Origin: Methylomarinovum caldicuralii | GTDB lineage: Bacteria > Pseudomonadota > Gammaproteobacteria > Methylococcales > Methylothermaceae | Assembly (NCBI RefSeq): GCF_033126985.1 | Contig: NZ_AP024714.1 | Span: 1,240,001-1,304,000, forward strand | Length of the DNA: 64,000 nucleotides | Direction of reading: 5' to 3' | Made by a program: the position numbers and the translations under genes | In this document: in pieces, positions 5,690-13,339 of the stretch | Numbering within the stretch: position 1 is the first letter of the stretch | Layout: every line of letters begins with the position of its first letter | Notes under the pieces: generated by a model | Database searches by the model: none | Seen by the model: only the letters and a program-made list of their open reading frames with translations | Told to the model about the DNA's origin: nothing

Positions 5690-6397
5690 TTAAAGATGAA
5701 AACCGATATTGACGAACAGGATGTGGTTCAGCTGGCTGGTCTTGGATGTGCCCTTGCGCACGAACTGGTTCATATAACCGAGGGTCAGCCTGGTTTTGGT
5801 CGCCAGGGGAATGGCGAAACCGGCGAAGGCGCGGTTTTCGGCGAAGCCGTCGCTGCGCCAGGCGCTGGAATTGAGATACCAGAACACCTCGTCGTTGAGG
5901 ATGAAGTCAACCTGGGACAGGCCCGGCACAGGGTGGTTCCATTGCACCAGTTCGCGGATCCGCAGGCCCATATCGTTGGAGTCGAGCTTCTCGTGCAGCC
6001 GTTGCTCCAGCCGGGTGCGGGTGAACCAGCGCCCGGTATCTGTAGAGGGGGAACGCCAGCCGATCTCCTCGTAGGCGCGGTTTTCGTTGAAACGGTCGAG
6101 CCAGTCGCGGGTGTAGCCCAGGCCGACGTGGAGCTGGTCGTTGAAGTGGTAATTGAACTGGACGAACAGCAGGTTCTCGGTCAGCTTGTTGGACTTGTCA
6201 GCAAACAGAGGCTGGGGATTGTGACTGAAGCGGGCCTGTTGGAGGAAACTCCAGCTGAATTTCTCCAGTCTGGGCGACAGCGCCGCCAGGCTGCCTTGGG
6301 CCGAGAGGCCGTACCAGCCGAAGAAGGCGTTGTCGGCGCCGAAGGCGTCCGCGGCCGTCAGGCCGAGGAAGCCCAGTATCAGCAACAGGCGTTTCAT
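5690..6397 (-). CDS. DUF2490-family outer-membrane beta-barrel-like protein
   Basis: The 235-residue product has a signal peptide (LLLILGFLGLTAADAFGA). It then shows alternating aromatic/polar strands typical of small outer-membrane barrels: FSWSFLQQARFS, LLFVQFNYHF, LHVGLGYTRDW, TRTRLEQRL, and a final strand ending in FVNIGFHL with aromatic and leucine at the C-terminus. Similar DUF2490 proteins are of unknown function. The start ATG overlaps the TGA of the upstream NuoB-like remnant (ATGA), so it was once translationally coupled to that gene. A longer open frame upstream exists only because of an indel and an IS insertion. Confidence 0.75.
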   Translation of the reverse strand: MKRLLLILGFLGLTAADAFGADNAFFGWYGLSAQGSLAALSPRLEKFSWSFLQQARFSHNPQPLFADKSNKLTENLLFVQFNYHFNDQLHVGLGYTRDWLDRFNENRAYEEIGWRSPSTDTGRWFTRTRLEQRLHEKLDSNDMGLRIRELVQWNHPVPGLSQVDFILNDEVFWYLNSSAWRSDGFAENRAFAGFAIPLATKTRLTLGYMNQFVRKGTSKTSQLNHILFVNIGFHL

Positions 6398-6594
6398 CGC
6401 TTTCTTCTCCCTTTTCCGAGCGCTTCCAGAATCCCGGCCAGCAGCACTGCCGGTGGCGGGGGGGCAACCGGAGATTTTAACATCCACTGGAATGACGTTT
6501 TCCACCGCGCCGCAGCTGGCATAGGACACGCCGAACTCGCCGCCGCACACGGCGCAGTCGCCGCAGGCGATCACCCACTTGGGATCGGGGGTGG
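6394..6594 (-). pseudogene. C-terminal remnant of a NuoB-like/[NiFe]-hydrogenase small subunit
   Basis: Directly after the IS end, the minus strand encodes WVIACGDCAVCGGEFG and then YASCGAVENVIPVD, followed by a GCPP motif. This is the C-terminal cluster-binding region of NADH dehydrogenase subunit B and the related small subunits of group 4 hydrogenases. The N-terminal part is missing because of the IS. A run of seven C after the GCPP codons shifts the frame; removing one C restores AVLLAGILEALGK and a TGA that overlaps the next ATG. So it carries two lesions: truncation and a one-base indel. Confidence 0.72.
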
Positions 6595-7651
6595 TGTCAA
6601 GCCCCGTGAGATTGTATACACGTTTTTTGAAGAGCTCCGGCCGCTTCTTCTGCCAGTCTTTGAGGGCCTGTACTGGTGATATGTGTCCCAGGGCCTTCTG
6701 GGGGATCTGATGGTTGTAGACACTGGCATACTGCATCAAGGTCCGTTCCAGATCCTGGCTGCTGCGGAAGGGGGTGGTTTTGAGGATCTCGGCGATCCGA
6801 CCGTTGCAACGTTCTACCATGCCGTTGGTCTGCGGGTGTTTGGGTGGGATGAGGCGGTGCTCGATGCCATGGCGTTGGCAGGCCTGGTCGAAAAGGTGAC
6901 GGCCGGTCGGTTCGCGTTCCCCGGTGGCGCAGAAGCGGTCGGTGAATTGCTCACCCCATCCCTGGGGTTCGCCCCTTCGGGGCCCGCTGCGCGGTCCAAA
7001 TCCGCTCCCGGCGGATTTGTCTTTGCCGTTGTCGGTCAGGACCTTGGTGATTTTGAAGGGGGCCTTGGCGATCAGGCGGTCGAGGAAAGCGGCGGCGACC
7101 TGGGCTTCCTTGGTGGGATGGATTTCCAGGCAGACCCAGCGACTGGCCCGGTCGATGGCGACGAAGAGGTAACGGCCCCGAGTCTCATCGGGCATCTTGG
7201 GCAGGTACTTGATGTCGATGTGGACAAACCCGGGCTCGTAGTCCTTGAAGCCTTTCTTTTTGGCCTTGGCGGGGGCGTTCTCCCCTTCCTTGGCAGCGAT
7301 CAGTTCCTTGAGATTGGAGACCCCATGGCGGCGCAGCAGCCGGTCCAGAGCCGAGCGGGACATCTTGGGATGGATGAAGCGGTGAACGACCGCCAGCAGG
7401 TCGTCCAGGGGCAGCAGCAGGGTTTCGCGCAGACAGACCACGATCGCTTCCTGCTGCGGGGTCAGGGTGGCATGGATGCGATGGGGCCGGTGCGGGGCGT
7501 CCTCGACCGAATCGCGCTGGCGCCACTTGCGGATGGTATGACGATGAGCGCCGTATTTCCTGGCCAGGACCGTGGCCGGCAGATCGGAGTTCTGGATCTC
7601 CCGGCGGATCTCAGGGGTGGTGCGGGCTTTCTTGTGAAGACGGATGACCAT
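6593..7651 (-). CDS. IS481-family transposase with an internal 24-residue insertion
   Basis: The ATG at 7651 opens a protein with an N-terminal helix-turn-helix (LPATVLARKYGAHRHTIRKW) and an rve-type DDE core: first Asp in VHIDIKYLP, second in LTDNGK, and Glu in NGMVERCNGR. Between LTDNGK and QFTDRF, normally adjacent, there are 24 extra residues encoded by 72 bp of palindromic DNA. The insert lies close to the second catalytic Asp, so the enzyme may be inactive. No stop codon occurs before the IS end; the frame runs on through the NuoB-like remnant and into the DUF2490 gene, for 653 codons in all. Confidence 0.82.
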
Positions 7652-7782
7652 AACTTCCTCCTCGTCCGTCAGGCTTGAGTCGTCTTTCTGGCCTGGGCCT
7701 CTGCCATCAGCTCACTCAGAATATCCCAGGCACGGAACAAAGGATAGCTCCTTTTGGGAATATGATCACACGGGACCCAACA
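6595..7782 (-). mobile_element. IS481-family insertion sequence
   Basis: The element is 1188 bp with imperfect terminal inverted repeats. The left end reads TGTCAAGCCCCGTGAGAT and the reverse complement of the right end reads TGTTGGGTCCCGTGTGAT; about 17 of the outer 25 bases agree. It contains one DDE transposase. No target-site duplication is visible (left flank GGGGGTGG, right flank TATAACCG), so one side may have been lost by deletion or rearrangement. It truncates the NuoB-like gene and now lies 156 bp upstream of a cytochrome gene on the other strand. Confidence 0.78.
6950..7021 (-). repeat. 72-bp palindromic element inserted in frame in the transposase
   Basis: Read on the minus strand, the 72 bases form four successive short hairpins: AAATCCGC/GCGGATTT, GGACCGC/GCGGGCC (one mismatch), CCCC-GAA-GGGG and ACCCC/GGGGT. 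The length is exactly 24 codons and contains no stop in the transposase frame. The flanking codons join into the expected LTDNGK-QFTDRF sequence. It resembles the REP-type repeats of GC-rich bacteria. No other full copy was seen in this window. Confidence 0.7.
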
Positions 7783-7938
7783 TATAACCGATAAATGTTA
7801 TATGAATATAAATTTTTGCAATAATGCTGCGGCCCTTTATTACAATGGCGGTGTGTTTGGAATTGAAAAATATTAGAATAACATGATTAAAAGGGTTATG
7901 ATTGGCTTCCCCAAAATCCGAAAAGCGGAGGAGTACCC

Positions 7939-8241
7939 ATGACCAGAAAACTGATTCCCGTTCTGGCGCTGGCCAGCCTGGCCGGCATCGCCAATGCTGC
8001 CGACATCGCCGCCGGCAAGGCCAAGGCGGCCGCCTGCGCCGGCTGTCACGGGGCCGATGGCATCGCTGCCAACCCTGCCTATCCCAATCTCGCCGGCCAG
8101 CATGCCCAGTATCTGGTCGCCGCGATGCAGGCCTACAAGACCGGTGCCCGCAACCATGCGGTCATGAAGGCGATGGTGGGCAGCCTCTCCGACGAGGACA
8201 TGGAAAACATCGCCGCCTACTACGAAAGCCTGAAGAAATAA
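7939..8241 (+). CDS. Small periplasmic class I cytochrome c (c553/c4-like)
   Basis: This is a 100-residue protein with a Sec signal ([17 protein letters not shown]) and one heme-binding CAGCH at about residue 34, followed by [17 protein letters not shown] and a C-terminal [15 protein letters not shown] helix. One candidate distal Met (MKAMVGSL) is present. This matches single-domain electron carriers of the c553/c4 type. A strong GGAGGAG lies 6 bases upstream of ATG 7939. The gene precedes the heptaheme cytochrome by 56 bases on the same strand, so the two probably form one operon and exchange electrons in the periplasm. Confidence 0.9.
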
Positions 8242-8297
8242 CATTCCGCCGCCGTGCCGGGAGGGCTGCAGGCGGCCAATCGTGAAGGAGGTTTGTC

Positions 8298-10664
8298 ATG
8301 ATTCGCCATTCTCTGCTATGGGGTGCCCTGCTGCTCTCCGGTGTGGCGGCGGCCGCCACCGATCCCACCAAACCCAAGAACGACTACAACATCACCATCA
8401 ACTACGAGCTGGGCATGCACTGCACCGGCTTCGATTTTTCCTACTGCTGCATTCTGCCTCCCTACAACTCGATCCAGAGTCAGGTGGTCAAGACCGCCCG
8501 GGGACCCCACGACAAGCCGCGGCTGCTCGGCGCCGATCCCAAGGACCCGATGATCCTGGTGGACGGTAACAAGCGCTTCAAGCTCGAATACGGTCACGTG
8601 GACAACACCTATTCGGAAGGGGCCAAGCTGTACTACTGGACCGTTCCCTACGACGTGGACGGCGACGGCAAGTACGAGGCCAGCGAGAACGTCGCCAACG
8701 CCTACTGGACTCATCTGTACGTTTACAAGGACCTTAAGGGCAGCAATCCCAAGCACACCAGCAAGGACAGCGAGAAGCAGCGGGTCGGCATCGAGATTCC
8801 GGTGCCGGTGGACAACGGCCCGGCAGGAGCGGCGGTGCCCAGTCCCATGAAGGGGGGGCACCTGCACTATACCGGCGAGGCGGGCACCATCGTCTTCACC
8901 AAGTCGCCGGTACTGGAGAACGTCCCCATCATGCTTACCCATCCCGGTATCTGGGACGCCCTGGGATTGCCGCTGACCCCGTTCTGGGACAGCACCGTCA
9001 CCAAGAATCCCATCACTATCGTCGAGAGCGACATCCGTCCCTACCAGGAGGCCTGGGTGCGGATGGTGGACGCCAAGACCGGCGAGCCGGTGCTCGACAG
9101 TCATACAGGCAAGCCCATCGAATTCCACGGCACCAACCCCATCGACGTGCCCAATTGCTCCAACTGTCATTCCAACGAGAACGCCAACGGCGACCGCTAC
9201 ACCCTCTACAAGCGCGAGTTCGCCTTCTGGAAGGGGCTGGGAGCCAGCGACTACATCGCCGGCCTCAAGGCCACCTCCATCTCCATCCTGCAGATCCACG
9301 ACGCCAAGCACGGCACCAAGTTCACCGCCAACTACAATCCCGACAGCCGCTCGCTTGCCAACCGCCTCGGGCGTGATCCGGTGCTGTGCCAGAAATGCCA
9401 CGCCGACAACGTCATCGGGGTGTTGGCCTCGAAAGGCGTGGTCGAGGCGCTGACCGGCCAGCAGGTGCCCGGTGATGTGCGTATTCCGCCCTTGAGCGAA
9501 GCGCTGCACCGCGCCCACCAGACCGTGCGGCCGCTTCCCGACAGCCAGGGCCGTACCGGCACCTGCGCCGGCTGCCATCCGGCCCACCGCCAGGACGGTT
9601 CCCTGGACGGCTATCCCATCACCCCCGACGGCCGCAACCATTACGCCAACGCCGACAACCGCGACACCAAGGGCGGCTGTTTCGCCGGCCGCGACGTCCA
9701 CTCCAACCCCAACAAGGACAAGGACGGCGTGGAAACCCCCGAGCACCTCAACGCCATCGGCAAGTGGCTGCAGGCCAATGTCTCCAAGATCGGCAACGGC
9801 CAGCACGGCAAGGGACTGTGGTGCACCAACTGCCACAACCAGCTCTCGCGCGAGCTGTACCAGCGTGACCACATCACCCACGCCTTCCGCCAGGAAGGGG
9901 AAACCCTGCGCAACAAGTCCCTCGAAGCCATCGCCCTGGCCATCGGCGTGACCGAGAAGGAGCTGGTCGAGCGCTATCTCGATCCCAAGGTGATGCTGGA
10001 CAAGAACGGTCACGACGACCCGGCCGAATCCGGCATCCTGCTCAATTGGGCCAAGGAGCGCACCGAGGCCGACATCGCCGTGATCGCCATGCAGGGCGGC
10101 AAGCCGCTGATCCACAAGGACGAGGACGGCGATCCCAGTGTCACCATTCTGTCCGCCGATCCCATGGTCGATCCCGACAGCCTTAAGCTGCCCAGGGGGG
10201 CCGACGACGCCATCGCCGTGCCCTACCGGGCCGCCGATCACGGCCGCGACTACTGGCTGGCACCGGGCGAGCCCCACTGCGCCGACTGTCATGAGGCGCC
10301 CTATGTGGAAGGACAGGGCGGTATCGCCTATCCCATCAACCAGCCGGGCAAGTACAGTCTGATGCGCTACTCCAAGGGCCACGCCGGGCTGGCGTGCCAG
10401 GCGTGCCACCAGTCGATCCATGGCTTGTATCCGGTGACGCCGCGGGTGGACACCACCACCTACAAGCAGGCGCCCCAGTACAACCCGGACGGCAGCCACG
10501 GACCGCTCAAATGCGCCGCCTGTCACGAAACCAACCAGTACGGCGTGCCGCTGATCGCCGAAGGCAAGACCTGGAAGGGCAAAAAGATCGACAAGGACTT
10601 CGATGCCGCGGTGACCTGGATGCACGCCAGCGCCCCCGATCTGGGCGGGCGCAATCCCCGCTGA
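8298..10664 (+). CDS. Heptaheme c-type cytochrome, 788 aa
   Basis: After a signal peptide (HSLLWGALLLSGVAAAA), the first ~280 residues contain no heme motif but have a Cys-rich start (GMHCTGFDFSYCCILPPYNS). Seven CXXCH motifs follow at about residues 287 (CSNCH), 364 (CQKCH), 423 (CAGCH), 509 (CTNCH), 661 (CADCH), 700 (CQACH) and 739 (CAACH). It is therefore exported, probably periplasmic or surface exposed. From memory it recalls the large multiheme cytochromes reported at the surface of methanotrophs, but this was not checked. Substrate or redox partner is unknown. The small cytochrome lies upstream and a parvulin downstream on the same strand. Confidence 0.85.
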   Translation: MIRHSLLWGALLLSGVAAAATDPTKPKNDYNITINYELGMHCTGFDFSYCCILPPYNSIQSQVVKTARGPHDKPRLLGADPKDPMILVDGNKRFKLEYGHVDNTYSEGAKLYYWTVPYDVDGDGKYEASENVANAYWTHLYVYKDLKGSNPKHTSKDSEKQRVGIEIPVPVDNGPAGAAVPSPMKGGHLHYTGEAGTIVFTKSPVLENVPIMLTHPGIWDALGLPLTPFWDSTVTKNPITIVESDIRPYQEAWVRMVDAKTGEPVLDSHTGKPIEFHGTNPIDVPNCSNCHSNENANGDRYTLYKREFAFWKGLGASDYIAGLKATSISILQIHDAKHGTKFTANYNPDSRSLANRLGRDPVLCQKCHADNVIGVLASKGVVEALTGQQVPGDVRIPPLSEALHRAHQTVRPLPDSQGRTGTCAGCHPAHRQDGSLDGYPITPDGRNHYANADNRDTKGGCFAGRDVHSNPNKDKDGVETPEHLNAIGKWLQANVSKIGNGQHGKGLWCTNCHNQLSRELYQRDHITHAFRQEGETLRNKSLEAIALAIGVTEKELVERYLDPKVMLDKNGHDDPAESGILLNWAKERTEADIAVIAMQGGKPLIHKDEDGDPSVTILSADPMVDPDSLKLPRGADDAIAVPYRAADHGRDYWLAPGEPHCADCHEAPYVEGQGGIAYPINQPGKYSLMRYSKGHAGLACQACHQSIHGLYPVTPRVDTTTYKQAPQYNPDGSHGPLKCAACHETNQYGVPLIAEGKTWKGKKIDKDFDAAVTWMHASAPDLGGRNPR

Positions 10665-10716
10665 TCCCGACCGGACGCCGGCTTCCGGCCAGCGTCCCTT
10701 TTCCCGGAGAACTGCC

Positions 10717-11790
10717 ATGCGAATCTTGATTTTCGCCGCCTTGCTGGCAAGCACCACCCTGCAGGCCAAGGTGCTGGCCACCGTCGACGGGACGCCGGTC
10801 ACTTCCGAGCAGTTGGAACAGACCCTGCGCTCCTCACCCTTTGCCACCCAGTATCCCAGCCTCGATGCTGACGAACAGACTGTCCTGCGCCGTGATCTGC
10901 TGCAGCGCCTGGTGCAGGCGGAAGTGTTGTATCAGGAGGCCAGACGACTGGGATTGGAAGAAGACGAAACCGTGCGTCGTGACGTGGCCGAATTCGAGAC
11001 CGGCCTGCTGGCGCAGAAATATCTGCAATACCTGCACGACCGGATCGAAATCCCGGCGCCAAAACAGGCCGACTGGCGTCGCCGGCTGGGCACCGATCTC
11101 GACGCCCTGGCCGCGGTCCGCTCGGTTTACATTGCCGACCGCTACCGGCAGGCCAAAGCCGCGGCCCTGGCCCGGCTGCGGCGGAAGTATGGTGATCTGC
11201 CCGAAACCGGGCTGTTGGCCCGGGGCGCGCGGGAGGCGGAGATCGACGTTTCCGCCCAGGTGGCCGGCTTCCGGCGGGAACGCCTGATCCAGCGTCTGCT
11301 GGAACGGAAGGAAAAGGAATGGATGCCCGATGAGACCACACTGCGCGACTACTACCAGCGTCACCCGGAAATCGGCCGGGTGCCGGAGCGGCGCCACATT
11401 GGCCAGATCGTGGTGGCGGACCGCGACACGGCCCAGGCCCTGCGCCGCCGGATTCTGCAGGGCGAGAGCCTGTTCCGGCTCGCCAAACAGTACAGCATCG
11501 ACCCTTACGGCAGGCAACACGCCGGCGACATGGGCTGGTTGCCGGAAGGCAGCGCCATGCCCGCGATCGAAAAGGCATTGACCACGCTGAAGGACGGCGA
11601 GATCAGCGAGGTGATCGAAACCCCGAGGGGATTCCATCTCGTCACCATCATCGAACGCAAGCCTGGGGAGCAAAAACCCTTCGCCGCCATCGGCGACCGG
11701 GTGCGGCGGGCGTTGCTGCTGGAGCGGATGCCGGCCTGGCTGCGCGAGGTCACGGCCCGCCACCGCATCGCCTGGTCCGGGGCGCCCTAG
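10717..11790 (+). CDS. Periplasmic PpiC/SurA-type peptidyl-prolyl isomerase
   Basis: The 357-residue protein has a signal peptide (LIFAALLASTTLQAK), a SurA-N-like chaperone region starting VLATVDGTPVTSEQLEQTL, and a C-terminal parvulin domain (RRHIGQIVV, then RLAKQYSIDPY, GDMGWLPEG and ETPRGFHLVTIIE). Such proteins assist folding of exported proteins in the periplasm. It lies 52 bases after the heptaheme cytochrome on the same strand, so a dedicated role in folding or heme-protein maturation is plausible, though inferred only from position. It ends next to the convergent rnt-like gene with no gap. Confidence 0.85.
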   Translation: MRILIFAALLASTTLQAKVLATVDGTPVTSEQLEQTLRSSPFATQYPSLDADEQTVLRRDLLQRLVQAEVLYQEARRLGLEEDETVRRDVAEFETGLLAQKYLQYLHDRIEIPAPKQADWRRRLGTDLDALAAVRSVYIADRYRQAKAAALARLRRKYGDLPETGLLARGAREAEIDVSAQVAGFRRERLIQRLLERKEKEWMPDETTLRDYYQRHPEIGRVPERRHIGQIVVADRDTAQALRRRILQGESLFRLAKQYSIDPYGRQHAGDMGWLPEGSAMPAIEKALTTLKDGEISEVIETPRGFHLVTIIERKPGEQKPFAAIGDRVRRALLLERMPAWLREVTARHRIAWSGAP

Positions 11791-12471
11791 TCAGCCCTGT
11801 TCCGTTTCTGTCGCTTCCTGTGCGTCGGGGGAGTGCGGTGCGGCGCCGTCATTGCGTTTGAGCCGCTCCCAGGTGTTGACGATGGTGCAGAACAGCTCCG
11901 CGGTCTTCTCGGCATCGTAGCGGGCCGAGTGGGCCTCGCGGTTGTCCCATTCGATGCTGGCGGCCTTGGCCGCCCTGGCCAGAACGGTCTGACCGTAGAC
12001 CAGCCCGCCCAGGGTGGCGGTGTCGAAGGTGCTGAAGGGGTGGAACGGATTGCGCTTGAGACCGGCGCGCTGGGCGGCGGCCTTGACGAAAGCCAGGTCG
12101 AACGAGGGATTGTGTCCCACCAGGATGGCGCGGGTGCAACCCTGTTTTTTCACCGCCGCCCGTACCGGGTGGAAGATTTTCAGCAGCGCCTCCTTCTCGT
12201 CGAGGGCGATGCGCAGGGGATGGTGGGGGTCGATGCCGGTGAATTCCAGCGCCGCAGGATCGAGCTCAGCGCCGGGGAAGGGCTGGACGTGGGCGCTGTG
12301 GACCTCGGCGATGCGAAGGAACCCCTGCGCGTCCATCTCCGGGATCACCGCGGCGATCTCCAGCAGGGCGTGTTTTTCAGGCTCGAAACCGGCGGTTTCG
12401 ACATCGACGATGACCGGCAGATAGCCGCGGAAGCGGCGTGCCATTGGCGGTTTTTCCTGGGACATAGGCAT
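11791..12471 (-). CDS. rnt: Ribonuclease T
   Basis: A 226-residue DEDDh exonuclease. Motif I is [20 protein letters not shown], motif II is in [12 protein letters not shown], and motif III, with the catalytic His, is [15 protein letters not shown]. The length and the [15 protein letters not shown] region match RNase T, which trims 3' ends of tRNA and other stable RNAs. ATG 12471 is used; ATG 12465 (MSQE) is equally possible. It is divergent from mlaA. Confidence 0.9.
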
Positions 12472-12577
12472 GGGACGGCCTCAGAAAGGGCAATCAGTAT
12501 ACCCTGAACTCGAAGCGCCAGGCCGAATATGCTATTTTTAGCAGTACGCTCTATTTTCACATCGTGGTAACAAAAAC

Positions 12578-13339
12578 ATGGAAAACAAGACGATAGCGAC
12601 GACCTGGAAGCGGGCCGGATGGATGGCGCTGGTGCTGCTGGGCCTGCTTGGGGGCTGCGCCAGCACCGATCCCCGCGATCCTTTGGAGCCGGTCAACCGC
12701 AAGGTCCAGGCTTTCAACGACACTCTCGACGATTACCTGATGAAGCCGTTGGCCAGAGGTTATCAGTGGGTGACGCCGGATTTCGTCGATCAGGGGGTGA
12801 CCAACTTCTTTGGCAACGTCAAGGACATTGCTGTGACCGCCAACGACCTGTTGCAGTTCAAGTTCAAGCAAAGCGGTCAGGATGCCGCCCGGTTTCTGGT
12901 CAACACCACGGTCGGTGTCGCCGGCCTGATCGATGTCGCCTCCGAGATCGGCCTGGAAAAGCATGACGAGGACTTCGGTCAGACCCTGGGCGTGTGGGGG
13001 CTTCCGCCCGGCCCCTATCTGGTACTGCCGTTCCTGGGGCCGACGACCCCGCGTGACGGTGTTGGCAGCGTCGCCGACGGGTTCATGAATCCGATCGCCT
13101 ACACCATTTTCCCGGTCAAGGTGGGGCTTTTCGGCCTGCGGACGGTCGATTACCGGGCCGACAACCTCAGCTCCACCGAGATTCTCGATCAGGCCGCCCT
13201 GGACCGCTACGCCTTCATCCGCAACGCCTATCTGCAGCGGCGCGAATATCTGATCCACGACGGCGAGGTGCCGCTGGACGAGGAATTCGAGGAACTGGAA
13301 GAGGAACTGGACGAGGGAAGCGGCGAAAGCGGGATCTGA
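12578..13339 (+). CDS. mlaA: MlaA (VacJ) phospholipid-transport lipoprotein
   Basis: A 253-residue lipoprotein with the lipobox LLGGC after a short hydrophobic signal. It is followed by DPLEPVNRKVQAFND and the MlaA core (VTNFFGNVKDIAVTANDLL, GQTLGVWGLPPGPYLVLPF). MlaA sits in the outer membrane and removes misplaced phospholipid from the outer leaflet, passing it to the MlaC carrier. No other mla genes are nearby. The C-terminal tail is strongly acidic (runs of Glu, Asp and Leu), longer than in the E. coli protein as I recall it. A strong terminator follows. Confidence 0.93.
   Translation: MENKTIATTWKRAGWMALVLLGLLGGCASTDPRDPLEPVNRKVQAFNDTLDDYLMKPLARGYQWVTPDFVDQGVTNFFGNVKDIAVTANDLLQFKFKQSGQDAARFLVNTTVGVAGLIDVASEIGLEKHDEDFGQTLGVWGLPPGPYLVLPFLGPTTPRDGVGSVADGFMNPIAYTIFPVKVGLFGLRTVDYRADNLSSTEILDQAALDRYAFIRNAYLQRREYLIHDGEVPLDEEFEELEEELDEGSGESGI

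Follow-up and report, generated by a model that had tools for sequence, protein, structure and literature searches.

The heptaheme c-type cytochrome encoded in the window (the whole 64,000-nucleotide stretch of Methylomarinovum caldicuralii DNA analyzed here) forms, with the isomerase gene beside it, a conserved unit with exchangeable upstream wiring. We propose that the protein transfers electrons in the cell envelope, where it would link a small c-type carrier to a partner outside the cytoplasm, and that it probably serves as an outlet. We give this reading a probability of about one half, and assign about two thirds of that to outward electron flow as the most likely direction. A conserved cytochrome, a folding helper, and exchangeable wiring would together point to an unnamed respiratory function in methane, sulfur, and iron oxidizers at oxygen-poor interfaces.

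The heptaheme protein and its conservation

The gene starts with ATG, with AAGGAGG located 6 bases 5' of it, and the surrounding genome is a single contig of 2,694,844 bases. An earlier note on this DNA, made from the letters alone, described seven CXXCH motifs in residues 287 to 743 preceded by a heme-free stretch of 280 residues. Both descriptions hold, with the motifs starting where Table 1 places them and none in residues 1 to 286. Seven motifs are far from chance, because 2000 shuffles of the protein gave a mean of only 0.0165.

Table 1. Features of the heptaheme locus, in window positions
Feature	Position	Strand	Remarks
Class I monoheme cytochrome c, 100 aa, probable electron partner	7939..8241	+	Pfam Cytochrom_C, 44.1 bits (cut-off 21.3)
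Heptaheme cytochrome, 788 aa	8298..10664	+	Signal-peptide-like N-terminus, residues 1 to ~20, read by eye, Sec-type
Heme-free N-terminal domain, residues 25-285	8370..9152	+	Without CXXCH; beta-strand-rich in AF2 models (middling-low confidence)
GMHCTGFDFSYCC signature, residues 39-51: H41, C42, vicinal C50-C51	8412..8450	+	Nonaheme relatives have only its GMHC
Heme 1 motif CSNCH (287-291)	9156..9170	+	Invariant
Heme 2 motif CQKCH (364-368)	9387..9401	+	Invariant
Heme 3 motif CAGCH (423-427)	9564..9578	+	Invariant
C461, lone invariant heme-domain cysteine, between hemes 3 and 4	9678..9680	+	Proposed disulfide partner of C42
Heme 4 motif CTNCH (509-513)	9822..9836	+	Invariant
Heme 5 motif CADCH (661-665)	10278..10292	+	Invariant; invariant H660 just before
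Heme 6 motif CQACH (700-704)	10395..10409	+	Invariant; flanking H695 and H708 common to nonaheme relatives
Heme 7 motif CAACH (739-743)	10512..10526	+	Invariant
Periplasmic PpiC/SurA-type isomerase, 357 aa	10717..11790	+	Pfam Rotamase_2, 67.3 bits; SurA_N_3, 31.4

A scan of GTDB genomes returned 174 candidate stretches, 163 of which encode a relative, and we analyzed the best 80 of the 163, which are 59 to 94% identical to the heptaheme protein. All seven motifs are present in 78 of these 80, with the other two (L002, L019) cut by contig ends, and across the 81 aligned sequences the motifs are unvaried wherever aligned. Ten histidines outside the motifs (H41, H334, H404, H407, H430, H468, H660, H695, H708, and H776) are likewise unvaried where the position is present. 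These would be enough for bis-His ligation of all seven hemes, a ligand assignment read solely from conservation, and such a full set of possible distal ligands favors low-spin electron-transfer hemes.

Searches against known families returned little. An NCBIfam scan of the heptaheme protein gave no family up to E 0.1, OmcA/MtrC included, and a PDB sequence search with the single protein gave no match. The best hit of a family-profile search was a short lipoprotein at E 0.051, which we do not find convincing. The earlier note would have yielded to clear membership in a family of known enzymatic function, such as a characterized reductase. We considered characterized multiheme enzymes of the nitrite, hydroxylamine, and tetrathionate types and rejected them, since no family model or solved structure matched by sequence.

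Structure prediction, proposed in the same note for the packing of the hemes, produced models but neither a fold match nor a packing result. The AF2 model of the whole mature protein, built from 60 of the 81 sequences, has a mean pLDDT of 71.2 and a pTM of 0.78; Foldseek against the PDB gave no match for it at E ≤ 0.001, and VIA-align listed only three rows, with Z of 2.1 to 2.5. For the N-terminal domain alone, pLDDT was 67.0 and pTM 0.50, and a structure search again gave no match at E ≤ 0.001. We draw no conclusion on fold or heme packing because the models are middling to low in confidence and the searches gave no convincing match.

Cysteines of the front domain

The motif CTGFDFSYCC (residues 42 to 51), which the earlier note called conserved-looking, is indeed conserved, with H41, C42, and C50 in 80 of 80 aligned rows and C51 in 79 (L044 is the exception). 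The note spoke of a cysteine pair here, but the motif holds three cysteines, 42, 50, and 51. It also overlooked C461, the only further cysteine outside the heme motifs, found in 81 of 81 rows.

The mature parts of six compact nonaheme proteins (L094-L099) have only two non-heme cysteines, one in GMHC and one in CLRGAM, and in a 17-row alignment these align with C42 and C461. Both cysteines are present in the four heptaheme rows, both paralogs of genome G008, and all nine nonaheme rows of that alignment, while the 8- and 9-heme c553o-like proteins of G042 have neither. Because the two cysteines of this wider family occur together or not at all, they probably form an interdomain disulfide between front domain and heme domain. 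The pairing suggested by the earlier note is not supported as it stands: C42 most likely pairs with C461 and not with C50 or C51, and we dropped the latter as the obvious partners, given that C42 co-varies with C461. Across the sequences compared, the vicinal C50-C51 pair is the mark of the heptaheme branch, and it is retained also in the 9-heme and 7-heme G008 paralogs. PMC9973256 describes a CX8C disulfide in MtrC that acts as a redox switch controlling flavin reduction; C42 to C51 has the same spacing, for which we claim no homology of site.

Kinship with nonaheme cytochromes and cytochrome c553o

Searches with the single protein gave weak matches in other Methylococcales, to 9-heme proteins carrying NDLGMHC...ILPP(Y/F). 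When compared with these nonaheme GMHC cytochromes by hhalign, the heptaheme family matched with a probability of 99.7% (E 5.3e-27) over the front domain and first two hemes. In five g4 genomes, the nonaheme profile picks out a single full-length protein of GMHC type per genome, along with many partial matches in proteins of 8- to 9-heme size. One g4 genome has a multiheme cluster that starts with 9-, 8-, 7-, and 7-heme genes, the order reportedly given by Bergmann in 1999 for ORF1, occ, and ORF3 of M. capsulatus. A GMHC gene of G042 lies ~75 kb from the multiheme cluster, as the numbering of MCA0338 and MCA0421 would suggest. After its first two genes, the g4 cluster holds ~53 hemes (overlapping frames counted once) versus the 58 quoted for M. 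capsulatus. We therefore do not equate the g4 genes exactly with Methylococcus c553o: the heme order fits and the heme count does not.

Passages of PMC517821 name MCA0338, MCA0421, MCA0423, MCA0424, MCA2160, and MCA2259 of M. capsulatus Bath as c553o family members, and in 2004 presented the family as unique to that species. The profile search for related methanotroph cytochromes that the earlier note recommended thus leads to the nonaheme GMHC proteins and on to the c553o family. We would place the heptaheme protein in a separate, more widespread branch of the c553o superfamily, because hhalign joins it to the GMHC nonahemes, whose profile reaches 8-/9-heme c553o-like genes; the Methylococcus names for g4 genes are assigned by inference.

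Like the heptaheme protein, members of the c553o family are multiheme c cytochromes that methanotrophs export, and their hemes follow a long N-terminal part. They also share an H-G/A before heme 6 and an S/T-x-H type histidine after it. They differ in having 8 to 9 hemes, so that the seven found here fall short of c553o proper, and the two c553o-like proteins that we aligned are without H41, C42, C461, and C50-C51. The nonaheme GMHC cytochromes of other Methylococcales (L093-L101) share GMHC...ILPP(Y/F) and the C42/C461 pair, whereas they have nine hemes, no C50-C51, and only ~19% identity over the aligned part.

Further members of the wider family turned up in two genomes. Contig C54 of G008 (L102) carries tandem diverged paralogs that both keep GMHC...YCC, one of 1184 aa with nine hemes and an acidic D/E/G-rich linker, the other of 766 aa with seven; over longer matches they are 48 to 56% identical to the heptaheme protein. 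The only long nonaheme-GMHC relative in the M. caldicuralii genome itself (G000:C1 ~1551620-1552814, minus strand; L105:2121-3314) retains its GMHC domain and four heme motifs, the last ones, while the stretch of the first five is missing, as after an internal deletion. The same genome has a multiheme cluster at G000:C1:1063400-1078500 (L104) with a heme-flavodoxin-reductase fusion and a 14-heme NHL-like protein. The fusion has homologs at E ≤ 1e-150 in 7 of 9 other Methylococcales genomes, two of them over about half the length.

Distribution

The relatives analyzed, the best 80 of 163, represent Methylococcales, Sedimenticola, Thiotrichaceae, Chromatiaceae, Gallionellaceae, Rhodocyclaceae, tubeworm and snail endosymbionts, and Nitrospinota. 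Most belong to lineages of sulfur and iron oxidizers, which rules out a trait of methanotrophs only. Across an even sample of Gammaproteobacteria, 15 of 369 genomes match at E ≤ 1e-30 (its own included; G407 has only a diverged form). Within the genus, 9 of 10 genomes match, again counting its own, and elsewhere in the order only 2 of 51 have a close match, and one of these two is a contig-end fragment. Three Methylobacter genomes carry the family at 74 to 75% identity (L007, L010, L055).

The nearest named relatives are Methylothermaceae; a tree from which L080 and the truncated L002 and L019 were omitted places the window protein beside L001 and L013 with a support of 99. Nitrospinota and Pseudomonadota fall on opposite sides of a fully supported branch, so that the tree gives no sign of a recent exchange between the two phyla; heptaheme cytochromes of Nitrospinota and Gammaproteobacteria are ~60% identical. 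Our search of the open-access literature found no paper describing the heptaheme family.

Gene neighborhood

The earlier note saw a monoheme cytochrome and a periplasmic isomerase on either side of the gene and suggested that it might be the core of an exported redox module. The flanking genes are as described, with the cytochrome 56 bases upstream and the PpiC-type isomerase 52 bases downstream, all on the plus strand, and the wider comparison supports the module. Neighbor-group HMMs place the isomerase immediately behind the heptaheme gene, in the same orientation, in 62 of the 67 loci that have at least 1.2 kb downstream; L034, L046, L047, L070, and L074 lack it in this place, and in L034 and L070 it lies upstream instead. 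It is a probable dedicated folding helper. Directly upstream on the same strand, the monoheme cytochrome also occurs in the Methylothermaceae loci L001, L002, L013, and L019. Another gene of the neighborhood encodes a TlpA-like thioredoxin, found 0.8 to 2.2 kb downstream in 36 of 54 loci, in 27 of them on the same strand.

Upstream, 38 of the 60 loci with at least 3 kb of sequence have a recognizable redox partner. This is a NapC/NirT tetraheme within 3.7 kb in 16 loci, mostly with a dihaem class I cytochrome; COX1 with a CuA-type COX2 and a dihaem class I cytochrome in 13, directly so in Methylobacter and others; and NrfD with an Fe-S protein in 3. None of the partner types searched for is upstream in the other 22. 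Several of the dihaem class I cytochromes have PdsA as their best NCBIfam match, below its cut-off. Partners of these kinds serve in chains that run either from quinol to c (NapC/NirT, Fe-S/NrfD, and the dihaem shuttle) or from c to oxygen (the CuA oxidase).

The Nitrospinota locus L074 has DsrC, DsrMKJO, and an NrfD/DsrP-like gene upstream, with DsrC, DsrK, and DsrO exceeding curated cut-offs and DsrM and DsrJ below theirs; the DsrP model, scored on the L071 homolog, was below cut-off. NapA adjoins the relative in L011, and the Nap-like genes near that in L040 group with the L011 NapA by clustering only.

Neighbor groups were single-linkage BLAST clusters; one of them (cluster 2) combined four types of protein, which we separated by heme count and length before the HMM search. 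We took counts from HMM matches because longest-ORF calling in GC-rich DNA gave false antisense ORFs, and synteny counts omit L080, whose N-terminus is missing. Our scan of 7600-12700 for sigma-70 promoters found none, and the five terminator-like sites there are no more than expected from shuffles (mean 4.4).

The context linked to copper, which the earlier note offered as a possible ligand of the cysteines, is confined to the upstream CuA oxidase and, in some loci, a copper-type P-ATPase. A P1B ATPase gene of this type precedes the heptaheme gene in L026 (3365-5851, the one scanned), L046, L052, and L069; in all of these but L046 the oxidase and dihaem cytochrome are there too. Ankyrin-repeat genes lie near the heptaheme gene in 14 loci (L021, L022, L025, L028, L029, L035-L037, L043, L050, L054, and L063-L065), mostly between NapC/NirT and the dihaem cytochrome. 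Within the Nitrospinota clade, a conserved exported-looking protein of 300 aa is encoded just 5' of the heptaheme gene (L071:4849-5772, L073, L074, L075), and neither Pfam nor NCBIfam gave a match for the copy in L071. On the minus strand of the window, a single frame at 5690-7651 joins a transposase-like part, a short NuoB/hydrogenase-small-subunit-like piece (PF01058, 22.4 bits, under the cut-off of 27), and DUF2490; it may be the trace of an insertion that hit a gene of hydrogenase type.

A proposed electron outlet and its alternatives

We read the upstream genes as the probable wiring of an electron outlet, given that NapC/NirT proteins (CymA type) and dihaem class I cytochromes are partners known from extracellular electron-transfer chains. 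In such an outlet, the isomerase would help fold or deliver the heptaheme protein in the periplasm, and a small class I cytochrome, here the 100-aa monoheme protein, would exchange electrons with the heme domain. The seven hemes would form a wire at the cell surface or outer membrane, with the C42-C461 bond clamping the front domain onto the heme domain. C50-C51 may tune or gate the exit end; in loci that have the TlpA-like protein, this protein would keep the pair reduced or switch it. Electrons would then pass outward from quinol or the c pool of respiration to an acceptor outside the cytoplasm, much as in CymA-PdsA-MtrC systems, which would give microaerophilic bacteria an extra electron outlet.

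The functional data behind this model stem from distant c553o relatives, and their bearing on the heptaheme protein is by analogy. Passages of PMC4831470 place c553o-family proteins on the M. capsulatus surface with copper-repressed expression, and, as reported in part of PMC6281684, deletion of the family member MCA0421 lowers anodic current in M. capsulatus. A crude rule finds lipobox-like signals in 26 of the 80 relatives; none of these has Asp at +2, and at least one is a false hit (L039). This lipoprotein-like third is consistent with the outer membrane. By the same error-prone rule, about two thirds of the relatives show no lipobox, which counts against the outlet, as do the 22 of 60 loci in which we found no upstream partner of the types searched for. 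Also against it, no outer-membrane conduit accompanies the heptaheme gene as a rule: the best MtrB/PioB score in its own genome is 19.9 bits (cut-off 23), and only 8 of 26 genomes carrying relatives have a match over the cut-off, so we rejected an Mtr-type porin as the regular partner.

The COX2-COX1-dihaem c arrangement fits inward flow at least as well. Electrons could thus enter from an extracytoplasmic inorganic donor, a reduced sulfur compound or Fe(II), and pass through the heptaheme protein and a class I cytochrome to the CuA oxidase, or to quinone by way of NapC/NirT or Fe-S/NrfD. Besides the lineages in which most relatives occur and the Dsr genes that precede the heptaheme gene in L074, this is favored by the upstream COX1, which, read by eye, keeps HPIVY, a motif that we take to be the mark of an O2 reductase. 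However, no sulfur-oxidation gene is common to all loci, and the aerobic methanotrophs that carry the heptaheme gene are, to our knowledge, not known to live on sulfur or iron. The sole deletion reported for the wider family, in the part of PMC6281684 cited above, lowers outward current. Electron entry is the main rival to the outlet, and we consider it possible but less likely.

An enzymatic role is unlikely in our view. One heme would be open or unusually ligated, and the protein would be a periplasmic small-molecule reductase or oxidase whose active site is shaped by the heme-free domain. NapC/NirT proteins commonly feed periplasmic reductases, and relatives adjoin NapA (L011) and a weakly HDH/HAO-like octaheme gene (L051). 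Conservation also seems extreme for a mere wire, with 250 of 788 positions varying in at most one of the 81 rows. On the other side, the ten spare invariant histidines suffice for bis-His ligation of every heme, Pfam and NCBIfam gave no enzyme-family match, and EPR of c553o by Bergmann in 1999 reportedly showed low-spin hemes.

The heme-free domain might instead be a new redox site, an idea that we consider quite unlikely. C50-C51 and H41, lying beside the heme chain, would carry out two-electron thiol or sulfur chemistry (e.g., on polysulfide, a low-molecular thiol, or flavin), kept active by the TlpA-like protein and feeding or draining the seven-heme wire. If so, different bacteria would have connected one plug-in respiratory oxidoreductase either to oxygen, through the CuA oxidase, or to quinone, through NapC/NirT or a Dsr-type complex. 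Very improbable is a periplasmic capacitor in which the front-domain cysteines report redox state as an oxygen or thiol sensor: the vicinal C50-C51 with its TlpA-like neighbor and the MtrC-like spacing speak for it, but spacing alone is weak, C42 seems paired with C461, and no conserved signaling gene stands out among the shared neighbor groups.

Comparison with known extracellular electron-transfer systems

If the heptaheme protein is an electron outlet, it would be a second candidate beside the conduit of Mtr type suggested for methanotrophs at anodes. For the Methylobacter that it studied, PMC13322032 reports no outer-surface multiheme cytochromes of the MtrC/OmcA or OmcB/OmcC kind, whereas the three Methylobacter genomes with the heptaheme family (L007, L010, L055) are others. 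The heptaheme protein resembles the MtrC/OmcA decahemes in combining heme-free and heme domains and in its C-X8-C spacing. Its Pfam match to MtrC/MtrF domain II/IV is weak (PF22113, 31.3 bits against a cut-off of 30), and Foldseek and VIA listed no MtrC domain II/IV chain for the middling AF2 model. It differs in having seven hemes rather than ten, and an MtrB-type partner is not obligate here.

By gene content, the locus can be likened to the SEEP-SRB1 16/26-heme operon, which includes a peptidyl-prolyl isomerase (PMC5539420), and to the Uet multiheme system with its isomerase UetB (PMC10734462), in that an isomerase is encoded beside exported multiheme cytochromes. Those clusters have other heme counts, and their beta-propeller/NHL-repeat genes are not a conserved neighbor here. 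In passages of PMC8805035, mtrCAB/pdsA/cymA(netBCD) clusters have CymA or NetBCD, with the dihaem PdsA, exchanged around mtrCAB, the same kind of partner swapping that we see upstream of the heptaheme gene.
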